This document shows, one piece after another, positions 37,159 to 49,567 of a DNA stretch of 64,000 bases. Made by a program: the position numbers and the translations under genes. Position 1 is the stretch's first letter; each line of letters begins with the position of its first letter. The notes under the pieces are model-generated. The model was given only the letters and a program-made list of their open reading frames with translations, made no database searches and was not told where the DNA came from. The DNA is from Candidatus Saccharimonadota bacterium. Its GTDB lineage: Bacteria; Patescibacteriota; Saccharimonadia; Saccharimonadales; Saccharimonadaceae. The stretch is from NCBI GenBank assembly GCA_017531585.1, contig JAFXKT010000001.1:248001-312000 (forward strand), given 5' to 3'.

Positions 37159-39732
37159 TTAGACTAGTTCGAGCTCGGCTTTCATCTTGGCAATGAGGCC
37201 GTTTTTCTCTTCTAGTCTGTTTCTGGTTTCTTCGACTAGTTCCTTTGGCGCCTTTTCGACGTACTTTGGATTGCGCAGGCGGGCTTCAAGGGTGTTGATT
37301 TCCTGGCCAAGCTTTAAGATACGATCTTCGAGGTTTGCCTTGTACTTTTTGTGGATATCCTCTGGAATCTGTAGGTAGATGTTGTGGCCTGGAATTGCAA
37401 GACGTAGGCCCTTTGCTTCTTCGACCTTGATCTGTGGAACACTTGGAGCTTTGGTTAGGTGCTGAACGAGAAGCTGGTTTTCGTACATGAGCTGGTCGTC
37501 ATGGAAGGTGATTGGGTATAGACCTGAACCTGGTAAGCTCTGGAAGTGGCTACGAACATTAGTGACGATTTCGATAATCTCATCAAAGTTCTTGGCGCGT
37601 TCTTCGTCAACCTTGTATAGCTCTGGCCATTTCTGGTTAATTAGTAGGCCTTCGGTCCAGCTTAGGGCTTGCCAGATTGTTTCGGTTACAAATGGAGCGA
37701 ATGGATGTAGCATGATAAGGACCTTTTCTAGGGTATCCTTGAGAAGGTCGGTGCTCTTCCATAGCTTTTCGCTTTCGAGGAACCAGTCGGCATATTTGTT
37801 CCAGACTAGGTCGTAAAGCATGTCACCGGCTTCTGCGAAGCGGTAGTTCTTCATGAGCTTGACGAGTTCTTTATTGGTGCGGTTGATTTCGCGGCGGATC
37901 CAGTTCTCGCCAAGGGCTTTGTTGCCGTCGCCGTTGTTGTCGTTTTCTGGGTTTTCGTCGACGATGTTCTGGATTAGGCGGCTAACGTTCCAGAGCTTGT
38001 TGCAGAGGTTGCGGCTTGCGATAACCTTGCTTACGCTGAAGGCCTGGTTGACGCCTGCGCTTCTAGATGCGATAAGACCAAGGCGAAGGGCATCGGAACC
38101 GTACTTGCTGACGGTTTCGATTGGGTTGATAACGTTACCCTTTGACTTGCTCATCTTCTGGCCGTGTTCGTCAAGAACCATACCGTGCATGTAGACTTCC
38201 TTGAATGGAATGTCGTCTTTGACGAAGAGGCTCATCATAATCATGCGACCTACCCACTGGAATAGGAGGTCGGCGCCTGTTTCCATGACGGAGGTTGGGA
38301 AATGTTTGTCGCTGTCGCTAGTGGTGATATATGGCCACTGGCTAGAGCTGAACCAGGTATCGAAGGTGTCTGGATCGCGGCGATAAGTTTTGCCATCGCT
38401 GACGATTTCTGGTTCGTTTACGCGAGTATCGTAAATCCAATCCGTTGGATCGTCGATGTTCTGGAAGGCTGGAATCGGGATACCCCAAGGGATTTGGCGG
38501 GAAATGTTCCAGTCTTTGAGGTTTTCTAGGTAGTTAATAAGAACCTTTTGCTTGTTGGCTGGATGGAATTTAATCTTCCCTGCCTTGAGAGTTTCGATTG
38601 CTTTCTTTGCAAGAGGCTCCATATCGACGAACCACTGTTCCTTGAGGAGCGGCTCGATGACGGTGTCGCATTTGTAGCAGTGGCCGACTTCGTGGACGAT
38701 ATCCTCTTCTCCGCGACGAAGACCGAGTTCTTCGAGGTCGTCTAGAACGGCTTTGCGGCAATCTTTGGTGGTAAGGCCGGCATATTTTTCGCCTGCTTCT
38801 TTGGTCATTTTGCCATCAAAACCAATGACGGTAATCATCTTGAGGTCATGGCGCTGGCCAACTTCGTAGTCGTTCTGGTCGTGAGCTGGGGTGATTTTTA
38901 CGGCACCAGTACCGTAGTTCATGTCGGCGTGTTCGTCGGCAATGATAGGGATTTCACGGTTTGTAAGAGGAAGTTTAATCTTCTTGCCGATGACATCTTT
39001 GTAGCGTGGATCTTCTCCGTTAACTGCAACTGCGGTATCGCCGAGAAGGGTTTCTGGGCGGGTAGTTGCGATGACGATTTCAGTCATGCTATCGGTTGGC
39101 TCGGCTAGAGGATAGGCAATCTTCCAAAGTTTGCCCTTTTCTTCCTTGTGGGTGACTTCGATATCCGCGAAAGCAGTCTGGTGCTTAGTACAGAAGTTAA
39201 CGAGCTTTTTGCCTCTGTAAATAAGACCCTTTTTCCAGAATTTGCCAAAAGTGTCGTAGACGGTATCGACTACTTTTTGATCGAGAGCAAAGACGAGATT
39301 ATTCCAGTCGCAGGATGCGCCTAGGGCACGAAGTTGAAGTTCCATGTTGCCGCGCTGTTCGTGAACGAAGTTCCAGACCTGCTGGTATAGTTCGTCACGG
39401 GTGTAATCGAAGCGGGTTTTGCCTTCTGCTTCTAGCTTGCGTTCATAAACAACCCAAGTTTCAAAGCCGGCATGGTCGGCACCAGGAATATACCAAGTGT
39501 CTTCCCCTCTCAAGCGGTGGTAACGGGTAAGAATATCTTCAAGAGCGATGGTTAGACCATGGCCGATATGAAGATTGCCGTTTGCGTTTGGTGGTGGCAT
39601 TACGATCGTGTATGGATCGGATTTGTCTTTTGGATTTTTCTCAGATTTTCTAGAAAATGCGCCGCTTTGTTCCCAGAGGGCGTAAATGTCTGTCTCGTAT
39701 TCGTTAGGCTCGTAAGCTTTGCTGAATTTCAT
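37159..39732 (-). CDS. valS: Valyl-tRNA synthetase
   Basis: 857 residues, full length. Class I signatures: HIGH at 55-58 in NGNLHIGHGLT, KMSKSKGN near 520. The CP1 editing domain includes ATTRPETLLGDTAVAV. The DALRLGL helix and a C-terminal coiled coil (ILKLGQEINTLEARLRNPKYVEKAP) are specific for ValRS. Charges tRNA-Val and edits threonine. No T-box is apparent on its side of the upstream gap. Confidence 0.96.
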   Translation of the reverse strand: MKFSKAYEPNEYETDIYALWEQSGAFSRKSEKNPKDKSDPYTIVMPPPNANGNLHIGHGLTIALEDILTRYHRLRGEDTWYIPGADHAGFETWVVYERKLEAEGKTRFDYTRDELYQQVWNFVHEQRGNMELQLRALGASCDWNNLVFALDQKVVDTVYDTFGKFWKKGLIYRGKKLVNFCTKHQTAFADIEVTHKEEKGKLWKIAYPLAEPTDSMTEIVIATTRPETLLGDTAVAVNGEDPRYKDVIGKKIKLPLTNREIPIIADEHADMNYGTGAVKITPAHDQNDYEVGQRHDLKMITVIGFDGKMTKEAGEKYAGLTTKDCRKAVLDDLEELGLRRGEEDIVHEVGHCYKCDTVIEPLLKEQWFVDMEPLAKKAIETLKAGKIKFHPANKQKVLINYLENLKDWNISRQIPWGIPIPAFQNIDDPTDWIYDTRVNEPEIVSDGKTYRRDPDTFDTWFSSSQWPYITTSDSDKHFPTSVMETGADLLFQWVGRMIMMSLFVKDDIPFKEVYMHGMVLDEHGQKMSKSKGNVINPIETVSKYGSDALRLGLIASRSAGVNQAFSVSKVIASRNLCNKLWNVSRLIQNIVDENPENDNNGDGNKALGENWIRREINRTNKELVKLMKNYRFAEAGDMLYDLVWNKYADWFLESEKLWKSTDLLKDTLEKVLIMLHPFAPFVTETIWQALSWTEGLLINQKWPELYKVDEERAKNFDEIIEIVTNVRSHFQSLPGSGLYPITFHDDQLMYENQLLVQHLTKAPSVPQIKVEEAKGLRLAIPGHNIYLQIPEDIHKKYKANLEDRILKLGQEINTLEARLRNPKYVEKAPKELVEETRNRLEEKNGLIAKMKAELELV

Positions 39733-40062
39733 TTATTCTCCCGTCATAAAAATGGGTTGGTTTTTCTTTGACCTTCCCTACTCTCTTTTGACTTATATTA
39801 TACACTAAAACAGGTGTTTTTGCTAATGGACTGGAACGCGATTTTGCTTTGAATTTGGTTTACAAAAAATTGTTAAAAAGTATTAAAAAATCGCCCCTTC
39901 GGACGCATCTGTATCTGTTATGGTTGTGCTTGACAATTGTATATAATTATATTCTAATAAAAATCAATTTCACACGAAAATGCTAGACCTTAAATTTTTA
40001 GGACTTGACAAAACATAACTAGTGTTGTGAAAAATGTATTTGTATTGATTCATAGTTTAATC
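39733..40062. other. Gene-free AT-rich region left of the candidate RNA
   Basis: No supported gene. TTGACA at 39930-39935 with a TA-rich box ~17 nt on, and a second TTGACA at 40005-40010 with a weak -10, could drive rightward transcription into the structured segment at 40063-40198. A small hairpin CGCCCCTTCGGACGC-like sequence lies near 39892-39906. Confidence 0.4.
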
Positions 40063-40198
40063 GACTTTTCTGCCGGGATATACGGATTATCCTACCCCAC
40101 GTCAAACCAGGACGTGATCCTTATGGCCGTCATGTATAAGAGTCCACCTCTTGCCCACCGCCATTAACATAAGTATATATGGTCGGGGTTGCTAAGTC
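40063..40198. ncRNA. Candidate structured non-coding RNA (strand uncertain)
   Basis: A GC-richer 136-bp island in AT-rich DNA, closed by GACTT (40063-40067) / AAGTC (40194-40198). Internal stems: GGATA/TATCC (40076-40092), CACGTC/GACGTG (40098-40116), CTTAT/ATAAG (40120-40140) or, mutually exclusive, AAGAG/CTCTT (40138-40152); and long-range ACCCC (40094-40098) / GGGGT (40185-40189). Looks like a multi-branch fold. Not SRP RNA, tmRNA, RNase P or a T-box by any signature I can see. Confidence 0.5.
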
Positions 40199-40265
40199 AA
40201 TAAAATGCTAATGATTGTTTGGGGTGGTGTAGGATAGTGAATTTTTGCTTTGTGTAGCTTCTAAT

Positions 40266-40316: not shown

Positions 40317-40520
40317 ATGGCGTATATCCGAAAATTTAAAACTGGTAGCGGTGCGACTGGCGTTCAGGTTTGTTACAAGAAGGGTAGAGAAGTCGTCAAG
40401 ACGGTTCATGTTGGCTCGGCTAATTCTGAAGCGGCGCTCAAAAAACTGCTCAAAAAGGCCAGGGCAATAATGGCTGAGGGCGAGACGCCGCTTTTTGATC
40501 TTTCGAAATTTGACGAGTAG
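40317..40520 (+). CDS. Fragment resembling the N-terminus of IS1634-type transposases
   Basis: 67 residues: MAYIRKFKTGSGATGVQVCYKKG, then VKTVHVGSANSEAALKKLLKKA. This pattern is typical of the first ~60 residues of IS1634/IS1549-group transposases (MAYxRKxxTxSGATAVQI...EHIGSAH). The catalytic part is missing. It could be a relic of an insertion sequence or a domesticated small DNA-binding protein. No terminal inverted repeats were found. Confidence 0.55.
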   Translation: MAYIRKFKTGSGATGVQVCYKKGREVVKTVHVGSANSEAALKKLLKKARAIMAEGETPLFDLSKFDE

Positions 40521-44317: not shown

Positions 44318-47300
44318 ATGGATAATAAATCTGGAAATCCGTTTCCGCCAGAGAGGGCTGATGATCTAGAGCAGGGCTCTGGAAGTCCTTTTGACATCCT
44401 TGGAGATGTTCAGTTTGGCGGCCAGGACGACGATCCGCTTGGGCGTCAGGCGGAAGCTGATAAGCATGCGCAGAGATACGAAGATCTTCGCAAAGAAAAA
44501 GACGAACGTGCTCAAAGGCTTGAAGAGTACGAGTCGACTCAAACTATACCTTTTAAACCCGATACACATAATGAACGTGCTGCTCAGGCCGATGTTGAGC
44601 TTGGCCGTTATCTTAGTCTGATTGACCCAAGTCAGCAAGAGGCAATTGCTTTTGTGCAAGAGCCTGGCGTTGTTGACTTTTTGAATGATACCCAAATTGC
44701 TGGTTACAGCCCAATAGATGACCGTATGGTCGATGCTTTAAGAGCTAGCTTTGAAGAATGGAAGGGGAAGCAAGAGGATAGTAGCTCTGAGATTGATGCT
44801 TCTTCTGAAGCTCCTATTTTTGAAAACTCGAGCGATAATGATGAACGTCATTTTGATGAGCACTATGAAAAGTTAAATGATCCTGCATATATGGATTCGT
44901 TAAAGAGCCTAAGTGTTGATGAACTTAGGAAAGGCAATATTATCGGTGCTCGCCAGGAGCTAGAACGAAGAGCTCGTGAGCTAGATAATGCTCCGATTGA
45001 GACTAGTGCAGATGACAACAAGGACGAGACTGATCATAGTGCTGACCTTGATCAACATCGTAAAATGTATTTGGAAGAATTAACTAGCGGTCCTGGTGCT
45101 AAGTGGCTTGCCGTGAATATGCCAGATACTACTCCTGAAGATCTTAAAAAGATGGATGATTTTCAGTTGATGAGTATTTATTTGGATTATGATACTGCTC
45201 ATACGCAGTCGTTAATCGATGAACAGGACGCTCTAAGTGAACGGCTGAATAATCTGAATAATAATTCCGCTGAAGGCGAAACTGGAACAGAGACCGATTC
45301 CGCAGAGCAACCTGCCGAAGAGACAGTTGAGGAGCCTACTGAGCAAGCCGCAGAGCAAACAGTCCAACAGCCTACCGAACAACCTGCCGAACAGCCTGCT
45401 GTTCAGCCTTCTGAGCAGCCAGTTGAACAACCTGCTGAGCAGCCTGTCGTGCAACCTGTTGCTGAAGCGATTTCAGAGGAGCAGTCTGCTGATGGTTCTG
45501 CAGACGGTCAAGCTAGCGAACCTGCTGGACAATCCACTGAGGATTTGACTGGAGATTCTTCTGCAGAGCAAGAGTCGGGAGATGACAAAGATAGCGAAGC
45601 TAGTGGGGATTCTGCAGACGGTCAGGCTAGTGAATCTGCTGAGCAATCCACTGAGGAATTGACTGGAGATTCTTCTACTGAAAGCGAAGAAGCAGGTGAA
45701 CCTACTGAAGAAGAGCAATCCGACGAAGAGACCGAAGAGTCCGAACAGAGCTCTACTGAGGAGGAAGAGAATTCTACCGAAGAAGAAGAGAGCTCAGAGG
45801 ATGAAGAATCTGAGAAGAATTTTGAGCGCGAAAAAGCCTTAGAAACATTCTTTGGTGAGGAAGATGCCACGAATTGGCTAGAAAAGAATCATGGCGAATT
45901 GTCTGGTACTGATATAGAAAACTTGAGCGATGAAGAACTCGAAGCTCTTTGGAAAGAGTACATGGATAGCCGTGGCGAAGAAGAAGAGGATTCCGCAGAA
46001 GAAGGCGAATCCAAGAAGCCAAAGAGCATGATGGAATTCTTGAACGAAAAGGGGATCACTGGTGATGATCTTCGCAATATGGATCCAAAGAAGATGATGG
46101 CGCTCTTGAATGAGTATGATTCTCTATATTCTGGCGGAAATCGCGAAGAAGAAAATTCTGATGAGGACGAAGAATCCGAAAAGAATTTTGAGCGCGAGAA
46201 AGCTCTAGAAACATTCTTTGGTAACGAAGATGCTACGGAATGGCTAGAAAAGAATCATGGCGAATTGTCTGGCACGGATCTAGAAAATATGAGCGACGAG
46301 GATCTTGAAGCTCTTTGGAAAGAGTACATGGATAGCCGTGGTGAGGAAGAAGAAAATTCTGATGAAGATGAAGAATCTGAGAAGAATTTTGAGCGCGAAA
46401 AAGTCCTAGAAACATTCTTTGGTAACGAAGACGCTGCGGAATGGCTAGAAAAGAATCACGGTGAATTGTCTGGTACTGATATTGAGAATATGAGCGACGA
46501 AGAACTCGAAGCTCTTTGGAAAGAGTACATGGATAGCCGTGGTGAGGAAGAACGTTCCGAAGAAGAAGGGGAAGAAGAACGCCGCTCGCCAGAGGAAGAG
46601 GGGGGAGAGCGCGAAGAAGAAGAAAAAGCCGAAGACGAAGAGTCTGAGAAAGAAGAGGAAGAAGAGCGCTCTGCTGAGGAAGAAAGAGCCGAACGCGAAG
46701 TCTTGACGGTCGTTAATGCTATGGCTGAAGAGGATGCAAGAATTGCAGCTGGCATTATTGCTGAACAGGCTTATAACGAAGAAATTAACAAGATGTGGCG
46801 CTTTAATCCTGTACGTTTGTGGCGTCAGTCGAGGCCAGGTCGTTCGTTCAGAATGAAGCACTATAATGCTGAGGCTATGGATAAACTTCGCAGCTTCAGA
46901 AATGGTGAAACTCCAGAAGTTCCAGCAGGGTTCTGGAATGAAAGAGACGTTATCGCTAAGTTTACGATGGCATACATGGAGAATCTCGAGAACGAGATGG
47001 TTCACAGCGATGCTGGCGAAATGATGCGTGGCTACACGGTTCGTGTTGGTGAAGATGGTACAGAAACTGTTGTTCATCGCCGCCGTAACGAAAATGGTGA
47101 GATTGAAGAAATCGAGGTTATGCGCCGCAAGAGCGATGGTACTATCGAGAATCTCATCGAAGAGGAAGAAGGCGACGAATCCGAGGCGATGGAGCGCGAC
47201 GCAAGGGCGGCCATTGAAACCAAGGATGCTATTAGGCGCTTTGCTGAATCTGGCGGTACTGCCGATGATAAGAATGCATTTATTGCAGCCATTAAGAAGA

Positions 47301-49567
47301 TTAAGGTTGAGACGCTTGGCCTAACAGATAACCAGAGCGACTTCACGATGGATAACTATCTCGATGCTGCTGTTGCCGCTCGCGATAAGATTAGTCATGG
47401 TATCGCAATGGACCGTGTCCTTGATGGCTTTAACTACATTAATGCTGAATCTAGAAGCCAGGTACGTACAGAGGTCGAAAAGACCAATATCGACTCTGTT
47501 GCTGCAAAGATTGCTATGCGTACACATGGTCTTATTGCGCCTGAAACAGCTGCTGCCGTTATCGGCTTTGCATCTGGCTACCTATTAACTGGCGCAAAGA
47601 CTGCCGCTAAGGCTGGTATTGCAGTTGGCGGTGTAGCTCTTGGCGTAGCTGTTCCTGCTACTATCCCACTAGTCGCTGGCGCCTTGATTTCTGGTGTTTG
47701 GGGTGGCATTAACGAAGCCAACAGAGTTAAGAGAGATCAGTCTAGAACGCTTCGCGATATGGCTATGGGTTCCACAAAGAGTACTTTGAATCCAAGTAAT
47801 CCATTTATGCGTGGCCGTCTCAAATATGACGAAGCTTTGAGGGCTGCAAATTATGATAGTCAGCCAGCAAATGGTTTGAAAGAAGCTTTGAATAATGCGA
47901 TTTCTGCAGGTAATACCGATGAAATTATGAAGCAGCTCGCAGCTATTGATTCTAGGATTAAGATTAGTGATCAGCAGGGTATCGACTTGATTAGCTATAC
48001 CTCTGGTGAATCGATTGTTAACGAACGTGCAAACTTGGATATTGCAAGAGCTCGCGCTAGGATTGCTCTCCGTGAAGCCGGCATAAATCCAAGCGAATGT
48101 GATACTTACTCTGATGCTTATGCAAGTAGCGTAGAGAGCATTAACCAGAATGTTTCTGATACGAAGAAGGTTCAGGGCAAGTTGCGCCGTCGTCGTGCAA
48201 TTGGCCATGGTATCAAAGCCGCTGCAATTTCATCGCTTGCATCTATTGTTGGCCAGGAAGTTCGCGCAGCCTTCGATGATAATGTGGTTGGCGTATTTGA
48301 ATCCGATAGCGCGAACAATATTGGCGCAAGTCGTACGGTTCTTGGTAATGCTCGTGAGAGATTCTTCTCGAGCCCAGATCCAAAGATTGGCATCGACCAG
48401 CAACTTACAGCTCAGCAAATCTCGGATCTTCGCCAAGAAGGTTATACGGTTGCGAAATCTGGTGCAATTCCTGGTGGTACCAACGAGTATGATATTCAGA
48501 CCTCAAGTAGCGAGTTTGCTAGTGAGAAGGGCTTCGTAGTTAATCGTTCACACTTTGGTAACGGTACGGGAGATACTGACTTCGATGAAGGTCGTACTTA
48601 TAGGACTGATGATCAAGGCTGGTTTACCGGCTTTAAGAACCAGATTACTGATGGCCGTGGTGGTTCTAGAGACTGGCGCGAAGTTGTTGAAAGCGGTCGC
48701 GTAAGAGCATACTTCACCCCAGAAGGCGTAGGCGGTGGTAAGACGATCGAGCTTAACGCAACTCCATTTACAGATGCTAGTGGCATGCCACAGATTAGTA
48801 TTACTTCGGATATTCCTGAAATCCAGGATGCTCTCGATAAGAAACTTGGTATGGTTGAAATCGCAGAGTACATGGGTACAAATGCAGACGGTACAGTGAA
48901 TGCGAATATCTTTAGTACATGGCCAGGTTCGGCAATGACTGGAGATATTACAGAGCATGTTACCGAACAGTTGCCAGATATCCCAGTATACTCGGTTACT
49001 TCACCAGATAGAGCTGTCGACTTCTTGCATCCAGTAGTTATCCCAGTACCTAGAACAGAAGCTGGTCCTAGCGAAAGAGGCACGGGACATACTAGACTTG
49101 ATTCTCTAAATCCTGTTGAGGAGGAAGAGCGTGAAGAAGAGGAAAGGCCTGCTGAGGAAGAAGAGCGCCGCACGACTCGCGAAGAAGAAAGACGTTCCGA
49201 AGAAGAGCGCCGCGCGCCAGAGGAAGAGCGTGAGGAAGAAGAAAGGTCTACTGAGGAAGAAGAGCGTCGCGCAACTGGCGAGGAAGAAGAAAGAAGAAAA
49301 GCTGCCGAGTTTAAACCTTCGAAGGGCGAACCAATTGTAGAGAGTCCAGCTAGGATAAATAAAATCGTGAAATCGCTTGGAAAAGAGTTTAAGACTAACG
49401 ATGAGCGTGCCAGGGCGTTTTTGGCAATTAGATCCTGGAATAGGATTATCGATGATGATCGTAAAAAGATTGTTAGTGGCAAAGATAAGACATCTAGAGC
49501 CGCTCTCTTGGCATTACAGTATCTTGTCCCGCACGGCTTGATCGAGCTAGAACCTACTTCTGAATAG
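44318..49567 (+). CDS. Giant acidic repeat protein with membrane segment
   Basis: 1749 residues. About 320-440 is a Pro/Glu/Gln/Val repeat (EQPAEQP-type), then Glu/Ser-rich low complexity. Three near-identical ~60-residue modules (FEREKALETFFG ... LEALWKEYMDSRG) start at nt ~45821, 46187 and 46388; weaker relatives occur at ~45060-45200 and ~46020-46130. A hydrophobic Gly/Ala hairpin (~1090-1140) is followed by a large domain and a second Glu/Arg-rich tract before a basic C-terminus. No signal peptide. Possible host-interaction or envelope-spanning protein; function not inferable. Confidence 0.7.
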   Translation: MDNKSGNPFPPERADDLEQGSGSPFDILGDVQFGGQDDDPLGRQAEADKHAQRYEDLRKEKDERAQRLEEYESTQTIPFKPDTHNERAAQADVELGRYLSLIDPSQQEAIAFVQEPGVVDFLNDTQIAGYSPIDDRMVDALRASFEEWKGKQEDSSSEIDASSEAPIFENSSDNDERHFDEHYEKLNDPAYMDSLKSLSVDELRKGNIIGARQELERRARELDNAPIETSADDNKDETDHSADLDQHRKMYLEELTSGPGAKWLAVNMPDTTPEDLKKMDDFQLMSIYLDYDTAHTQSLIDEQDALSERLNNLNNNSAEGETGTETDSAEQPAEETVEEPTEQAAEQTVQQPTEQPAEQPAVQPSEQPVEQPAEQPVVQPVAEAISEEQSADGSADGQASEPAGQSTEDLTGDSSAEQESGDDKDSEASGDSADGQASESAEQSTEELTGDSSTESEEAGEPTEEEQSDEETEESEQSSTEEEENSTEEEESSEDEESEKNFEREKALETFFGEEDATNWLEKNHGELSGTDIENLSDEELEALWKEYMDSRGEEEEDSAEEGESKKPKSMMEFLNEKGITGDDLRNMDPKKMMALLNEYDSLYSGGNREEENSDEDEESEKNFEREKALETFFGNEDATEWLEKNHGELSGTDLENMSDEDLEALWKEYMDSRGEEEENSDEDEESEKNFEREKVLETFFGNEDAAEWLEKNHGELSGTDIENMSDEELEALWKEYMDSRGEEERSEEEGEEERRSPEEEGGEREEEEKAEDEESEKEEEEERSAEEERAEREVLTVVNAMAEEDARIAAGIIAEQAYNEEINKMWRFNPVRLWRQSRPGRSFRMKHYNAEAMDKLRSFRNGETPEVPAGFWNERDVIAKFTMAYMENLENEMVHSDAGEMMRGYTVRVGEDGTETVVHRRRNENGEIEEIEVMRRKSDGTIENLIEEEEGDESEAMERDARAAIETKDAIRRFAESGGTADDKNAFIAAIKKIKVETLGLTDNQSDFTMDNYLDAAVAARDKISHGIAMDRVLDGFNYINAESRSQVRTEVEKTNIDSVAAKIAMRTHGLIAPETAAAVIGFASGYLLTGAKTAAKAGIAVGGVALGVAVPATIPLVAGALISGVWGGINEANRVKRDQSRTLRDMAMGSTKSTLNPSNPFMRGRLKYDEALRAANYDSQPANGLKEALNNAISAGNTDEIMKQLAAIDSRIKISDQQGIDLISYTSGESIVNERANLDIARARARIALREAGINPSECDTYSDAYASSVESINQNVSDTKKVQGKLRRRRAIGHGIKAAAISSLASIVGQEVRAAFDDNVVGVFESDSANNIGASRTVLGNARERFFSSPDPKIGIDQQLTAQQISDLRQEGYTVAKSGAIPGGTNEYDIQTSSSEFASEKGFVVNRSHFGNGTGDTDFDEGRTYRTDDQGWFTGFKNQITDGRGGSRDWREVVESGRVRAYFTPEGVGGGKTIELNATPFTDASGMPQISITSDIPEIQDALDKKLGMVEIAEYMGTNADGTVNANIFSTWPGSAMTGDITEHVTEQLPDIPVYSVTSPDRAVDFLHPVVIPVPRTEAGPSERGTGHTRLDSLNPVEEEEREEEERPAEEEERRTTREEERRSEEERRAPEEEREEEERSTEEEERRATGEEEERRKAAEFKPSKGEPIVESPARINKIVKSLGKEFKTNDERARAFLAIRSWNRIIDDDRKKIVSGKDKTSRAALLALQYLVPHGLIELEPTSE
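45821..46555 (+). repeat. Tandem coding repeats in the giant protein
   Basis: Three copies of a ~180-nt unit (consensus peptide start FEREKxLETFFGxEDA). Copies 2 and 3 are 201 bp (67 codons) apart; copies 1 and 2 are 366 bp apart because a degenerate module (MMEFLNEKGITGDDLRNM) lies between. Confidence 0.8.

Follow-up and report, generated by a model that had tools for sequence, protein, structure and literature searches.

The gap between valS and a small divergent gene, orf67, in a bacterium of Candidatus Saccharimonadota raises the question of whether it contains a novel structured RNA, as a preliminary description proposed, and if so on which strand and between which boundaries. The window, by which we mean the whole stretch of 64,000 nucleotides that was analysed, carries valS on the minus strand (37159–39732) and orf67 on the plus strand (40317–40520), and the 584 bp between them are free of longer genes. 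A segment of 136 bp at 40063–40198 stands out from this AT-rich gap, as had been described, with a GC content of 48.5% compared with 30.3% in the rest of the gap to its left and 28.8% to its right. It is also without a coding frame, its sole frame being one of 20–22 amino acids on the minus strand (40164–40102).

The complementary letters from which the RNA was proposed are all in place. They comprise GACTT (40063–40067) and AAGTC (40194–40198), which were to close the segment, the stems CACGTC/GACGTG (40098–40103 and 40111–40116), GGATA/TATCC (40076–40080 and 40088–40092) and CTTAT/ATAAG (40120–40124 and 40136–40140), and the long-range pair ACCCC/GGGGT (40094–40098 and 40185–40189), which has base 40098 in common with the CACGTC stem. 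By folding alone, the named stems are at chance level. The 151 nt around the segment give a z score of −1.11 when folded as the plus strand (22 of 200 shuffles fold equally well) and of −0.62 as the minus strand (47 of 200), and the whole of the minus-strand RNA predicted below folds like its shuffles (z = −0.46). Covariation on the window's own helices was assessed with three near-identical sequences only; these helices gain no support from it and are no better than shuffles, one 5′-terminal hairpin (z = −2.3) excepted.

No known family accounts for the locus. Rfam gives no family match there at the gathering cut-off and no relevant match at E values up to 10; what appears at that level lies in other parts of the gap and is attributable to chance. 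The remark that the segment bears no signature of SRP, tmRNA, RNase P or 6S agrees with the lack of covariance-model matches at the locus; the RNase P and tmRNA models match elsewhere on the contig (C4), and the Rfam searches return no T-box at the locus. The small and large SRP models and the 6S model find nothing in the window's genome (G000, 99.6% complete), and its SRP RNA may be very divergent.

A DNA search with the 136 bp finds the segment in three of 45 congeneric genomes (its own, G011 and G035), with no match in phages or viral contigs. When these three sister species are aligned, a single site of the 136 is variable, against 26 of 448 in the rest of the gap (ten of 330 in its left part and 16 of 118 in its right part; Fisher p = 0.0096) and 126 of 858 valS third codon positions (14.7%; Fisher p = 1e-7). 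The segment is thus conserved, and something at this place must be under constraint. Judged from the alignment, the true conserved block is wider than the segment and spans 39961–40223, with two variable sites among 263.

The best-placed sigma70-like site in the gap, P−, is oriented leftwards. Its −35 box TTGACT (40195–40200, minus strand) is separated by 17 nt from the −10 box TATACT (40172–40177, minus strand), and together they match the consensus at ten of 12 positions. The AAGTC arm of the proposed closing helix overlaps this −35 box, so the GACTT/AAGTC helix is impossible in a transcript made from P−. The promoters originally suggested for the segment, TTGACA at 39930 and 40005, are present as letters, and both are without a good −10 box. 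The second of them (40005–40010, plus strand) is conserved in most congeners beside CACGTG palindromes and, from its sequence, could possibly be a weak promoter opposing P−.

Relatives carry the same arrangement in the DNA adjoining orf67, with a minus-strand consensus of TTGACA/T, 17 nt and TAAAAT/TATAAT. A P−-type promoter with its box for leftward transcription was picked at 85 loci, some of which are duplicates; the loci with this promoter number about 80 and come from two sister genera. The spacing is 17 nt in 80 of the 85 and 18 nt in five, a count that is biased because each locus contributed its single best site, which favours consensus match and 17-nt spacing; the sequence context, for example CGCTAAAAT and TTAGCAWCCC, is free of this bias. 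The pair of valS (minus strand) on the left and orf67 (plus strand) on the right is kept in more than 30 congeners of the window's genus (g1), and this genus alone has valS as the left neighbour. The second genus (g2) has another neighbour, a femX-like gene at L059, while valS is on the other strand at L090, and the DNA beside orf67 is still recognisably alike despite this change. With valS, a femX-like gene or an opposite-strand gene next to the promoter and hairpin, the unit is, as far as gene order tells, not the leader of any one gene.

The structural evidence comes from these relatives, where a hairpin starts 7–9 nt after the −10 box, at or adjoining the predicted +1. The seven-pair stem is 89% paired among 37 sequences of g2, with 34 double-change cells compared with 10.7 in shuffles (0/500), and 91% paired among 28 sequences of g1 counted separately, with 17 compared with 5.5 (0/500), although these shuffle counts overstate the case since related loci are not independent. 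Sliding the partner strand in g2 lowers the pairing to 23–52%, and RNAalifold finds the g2 hairpin unaided. G–U pairs in the stem, which amount to eight cells in g1 and were counted in g2 too, become A–C if read on the plus strand. At 57 loci the minus strand has the stronger folding energy, at 22 the plus strand (p = 3e-6, a value uncorrected for the relatedness of the loci and hence overstated). The check for homology and covariation in relatives thus gives compensatory changes in the 5′ hairpin of both genera, and the locus of the relatives appears to be that of a structured noncoding RNA, a predicted transcript with an evolutionarily supported 5′ hairpin. Another g2 hairpin, CCGAC...GCCGG, was considered as a terminator; its T run fits the minus strand, and it is not used as evidence because of a regular A–C mismatch that would be G–U on the plus strand.

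The window's own copy has a proper −10 box, a hairpin in the right place and a terminator. This hairpin, H1 (40123–40164, minus strand), pairs AUGGC with GCCAU around AAGAG/CUCUU, starts 7 nt after the −10 box, matching the relatives, and occupies the same place as their covarying hairpin. Its folding energy is −14.7 kcal/mol (z = −2.34), which four of 200 shuffles equal. Two of the stems noted at the outset lie further along the minus strand as H2 (CACGUC-7-GACGUG, 40098–40116) and H3 (GGAUA-7-UAUCC, 40076–40092); both are read from the sequence, H2 also from the fold, and neither has comparative support. A putative intrinsic terminator, CGTCCGAAGGGGCG-ATTTTTT (39886–39905, minus strand), is kept in both sister species as CGTCCGAAAGGGCG-ATTTTTT. 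The transcript would accordingly be about 280 nt long (39886–40165, minus strand), from a predicted +1 near 40165 to this terminator. A minus-strand terminator lies beyond P− in 16 congeners out of 35, compared with 1.3 in shuffles; for both genera together such terminators outnumber those of the plus strand only modestly and some are two-way, which leaves the 3′ end uncertain.

The covariance model R1, which was built from g2 and spans promoter and hairpin, finds g1 loci at 17–52 bits. In a search of 197 genomes of the order, matches above about 35 bits occur in g2 and g1 follows at lower scores, while matches near 24–34 bits outside the two genera look like chance promoters. The best matches adjoin orf67 in divergent orientation, about 120–800 bp away. 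Strong matches and orf67 are confined to the same two genera, orf67 being present in g1 and g2 only, of 42 genera in the family. A further 80 orf67 loci from named genomes belong to Saccharibacteria, including Candidatus Nanosyncoccus alces, apart from one filed as Nomurabacteria and one filed merely as bacterium. On the window's copy the model recognises only the −35 half (40186–40200, 7 bits) and leaves the RNA part unmatched; H1 is therefore placed by position and promoter rather than by RNA homology. That −35 half, TTGACTTAGCAACCC, is kept and is identical in several relatives. The window's copy is, on this reading of its sequence, a strongly diverged, lineage-specific version of the locus.

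The region between P− and orf67 is rich in short repeats. The motif G[GA][TA]TGC[TC]A[AG] occurs there in 115 copies over 11.6 kb, against 90 over 1149 kb elsewhere (127-fold enriched), and direct repeats GGWTGCTAR are exactly 16 bp apart in 40 of 40 two-copy loci. The window has one operator-like copy, GGTTGCTAA (40187–40195, plus strand), indicated by the enrichment in relatives, and 16 bp from it a degenerate one read from the sequence, AAATGCTAA (40203–40211, plus strand). The protein encoded by orf67, 67 amino acids long and without a match in Pfam or NCBIfam, resembles through its residues 2–37 the N-terminus of actinobacterial IS1634-family transposases (49–56% identity, E = 4e-4). Among the sister species its gene has eight variable sites, all at third codon positions. 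Unlike those transposases, it lacks the catalytic part and is present as one copy per genome with no insertion sequence around the gene, and it is possibly a domesticated transposase domain.

The proposal of a novel structured RNA in the gap therefore stands in part. What remains of it is a conserved locus resembling that of a noncoding RNA, with covariation in relatives and no Rfam match; the strand, boundaries, closing helix and promoters differ from those put forward. On the sequence evidence we regard this as a real, conserved and undescribed noncoding RNA locus on the minus strand whose transcript is predicted. We favour, as the probable explanation, a minus-strand gene for a regulatory small RNA, of which the segment forms the 5′ part and which has its start at P−, a 5′ hairpin, a terminator before valS and probable control through the repeats, likeliest by the orf67 protein. 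The promoter, hairpin and terminator are present and conserved as sequences, and we infer that they are used as follows. RNA polymerase would start at P− (+1 at about 40165) and read leftwards, and the RNA would begin with the hairpin and end, in the window's species, at 39905–39886. Control of P− probably falls to a protein that binds the 16-bp-spaced repeats just upstream, the likeliest candidate being the divergent IS1634-derived protein, which would also control itself. Most likely the RNA would have a regulatory role as a small RNA, with the hairpin at its 5′ end shielding it or serving to hold a protein. Behind the −35 half, the sequence may in the window's lineage have been replaced by, or have rapidly become, a longer GC-rich form that was then fixed.

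Two other explanations, both unlikely, retain the conservation and assign it to something else. One is that the block is a regulatory region in which only the DNA matters, containing promoters and operators of orf67 and its neighbours, with any RNA a by-product. The strong 16-bp-spaced repeats, the palindromes and the extension of the conserved block to both sides of P− speak for it; operators, however, explain neither why a hairpin at a fixed distance from +1 shows compensatory changes nor the minus-strand preference. A reading about as unlikely makes P− the promoter of a valS leader, with an attenuator, composed of the 5′ hairpin and the terminator at 39905, that controls valyl-tRNA synthetase, like the attenuator and T-box leaders of aminoacyl-tRNA synthetase genes. 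The locus does resemble these: wherever a congener was recovered with valS, that gene is located downstream and on the same strand, and the terminator stands between P− and the gene. It differs in that valS has a TATAAT of its own (39797–39802), no T-box is matched and, outside the genus, the link to valS is lost, the same promoter and hairpin preceding other genes or facing a gene's end in g2. We reject this leader because the unit follows orf67 and not valS.

The original version, in which one of the TTGACA sites (40005 or 39930) drives a plus-strand RNA with GACTT/AAGTC as its closing helix, is improbable: it has in its favour the conservation of the 40005 site in congeners and the plus-strand z score of −1.1, and against it the poor −10 regions, the use of its closing arm as the −35 box of P− and the relatives' hairpin, which favours the minus strand. 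That the 136 bp are an insert, either neutral or of recent spread, shared by three very closely related species is about as improbable; the restriction to three congeners of 45 and the failure of model R1 to match the segment would suit such an insert, but one variable site in 136 does not when 14.7% of valS third positions vary in the same genomes. Least probable of all is a leaderless 20-amino-acid peptide, MAVGKRWTLIHDGHKDHVLV (40164–40102), expressed from P−, as an ATG does coincide with the predicted +1 at 40164 but other congeners have none at this place; the frame itself carries no substitutions.

Returning to the small RNA gene read from P−, a role of orf67 as its repeat-binding regulator is an inference. 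A wider and more tentative extension, which we consider possible and not likely, is that a domesticated IS1634-type N-terminal domain and a divergent small RNA with a covarying 5′ hairpin form a two-part regulatory module inherited in two genera of Saccharibacteria, in which the protein would bind 16-bp-spaced repeats descended from transposon-end sites and set the RNA level. Intergenic small RNAs transcribed divergently from a putative regulator gene are a general class in bacteria. The locus shares with them a sigma70-type promoter, a 5′ hairpin, a terminator in some loci and a short predicted noncoding transcript in the gap; it departs from them in being paired with a transposase-like N-terminal domain that stands alone and in being confined to two Saccharibacteria genera and without an Rfam family. 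As for a small RNA gene, compensatory helix changes are found in the relatives' hairpin and the locus has its own promoter and terminator (P− and 39905–39886), although only some relatives have the terminator. The family is new but of an ordinary kind, resembling the regulatory small RNAs of bacteria. A literature search brought up no such RNA from Saccharibacteria or from elsewhere in the candidate phyla radiation. In these tiny parasitic bacteria, whose genomes are very small and in which few regulators are known, the covariation evidence from about 80 genomes at species level, the defined promoter and the candidate regulator linked to it make the locus a concrete, testable small RNA system.

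Some minor observations concern the surroundings. In congeners (L008:1–3201 and others) two parS-like palindromes, TTTCACRTGAAA, stand between valS and P− as a near-unique pair, of which the window's lineage keeps only TTTCACACGAAA at 39968–39979, with no other site in its genome. The idea that the TTTCACGTGAAA palindromes are a chromosomal parS cluster at an origin has in its favour this near-unique pairing at the locus in congeners, and against it their absence from the window's genome and a GC skew without a switch at the locus. A motif CAGGGAA/TTCCCTG recurs in intergenic DNA close to gene starts (39733–39830 and many relatives), and near 39775–39794 it gives a sub-threshold DUF805b match of 13 bits (gathering 35.6). 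Further to the right, an open reading frame of 1749 amino acids (44318–49567, plus strand) contains long glutamate-rich and repeated stretches.
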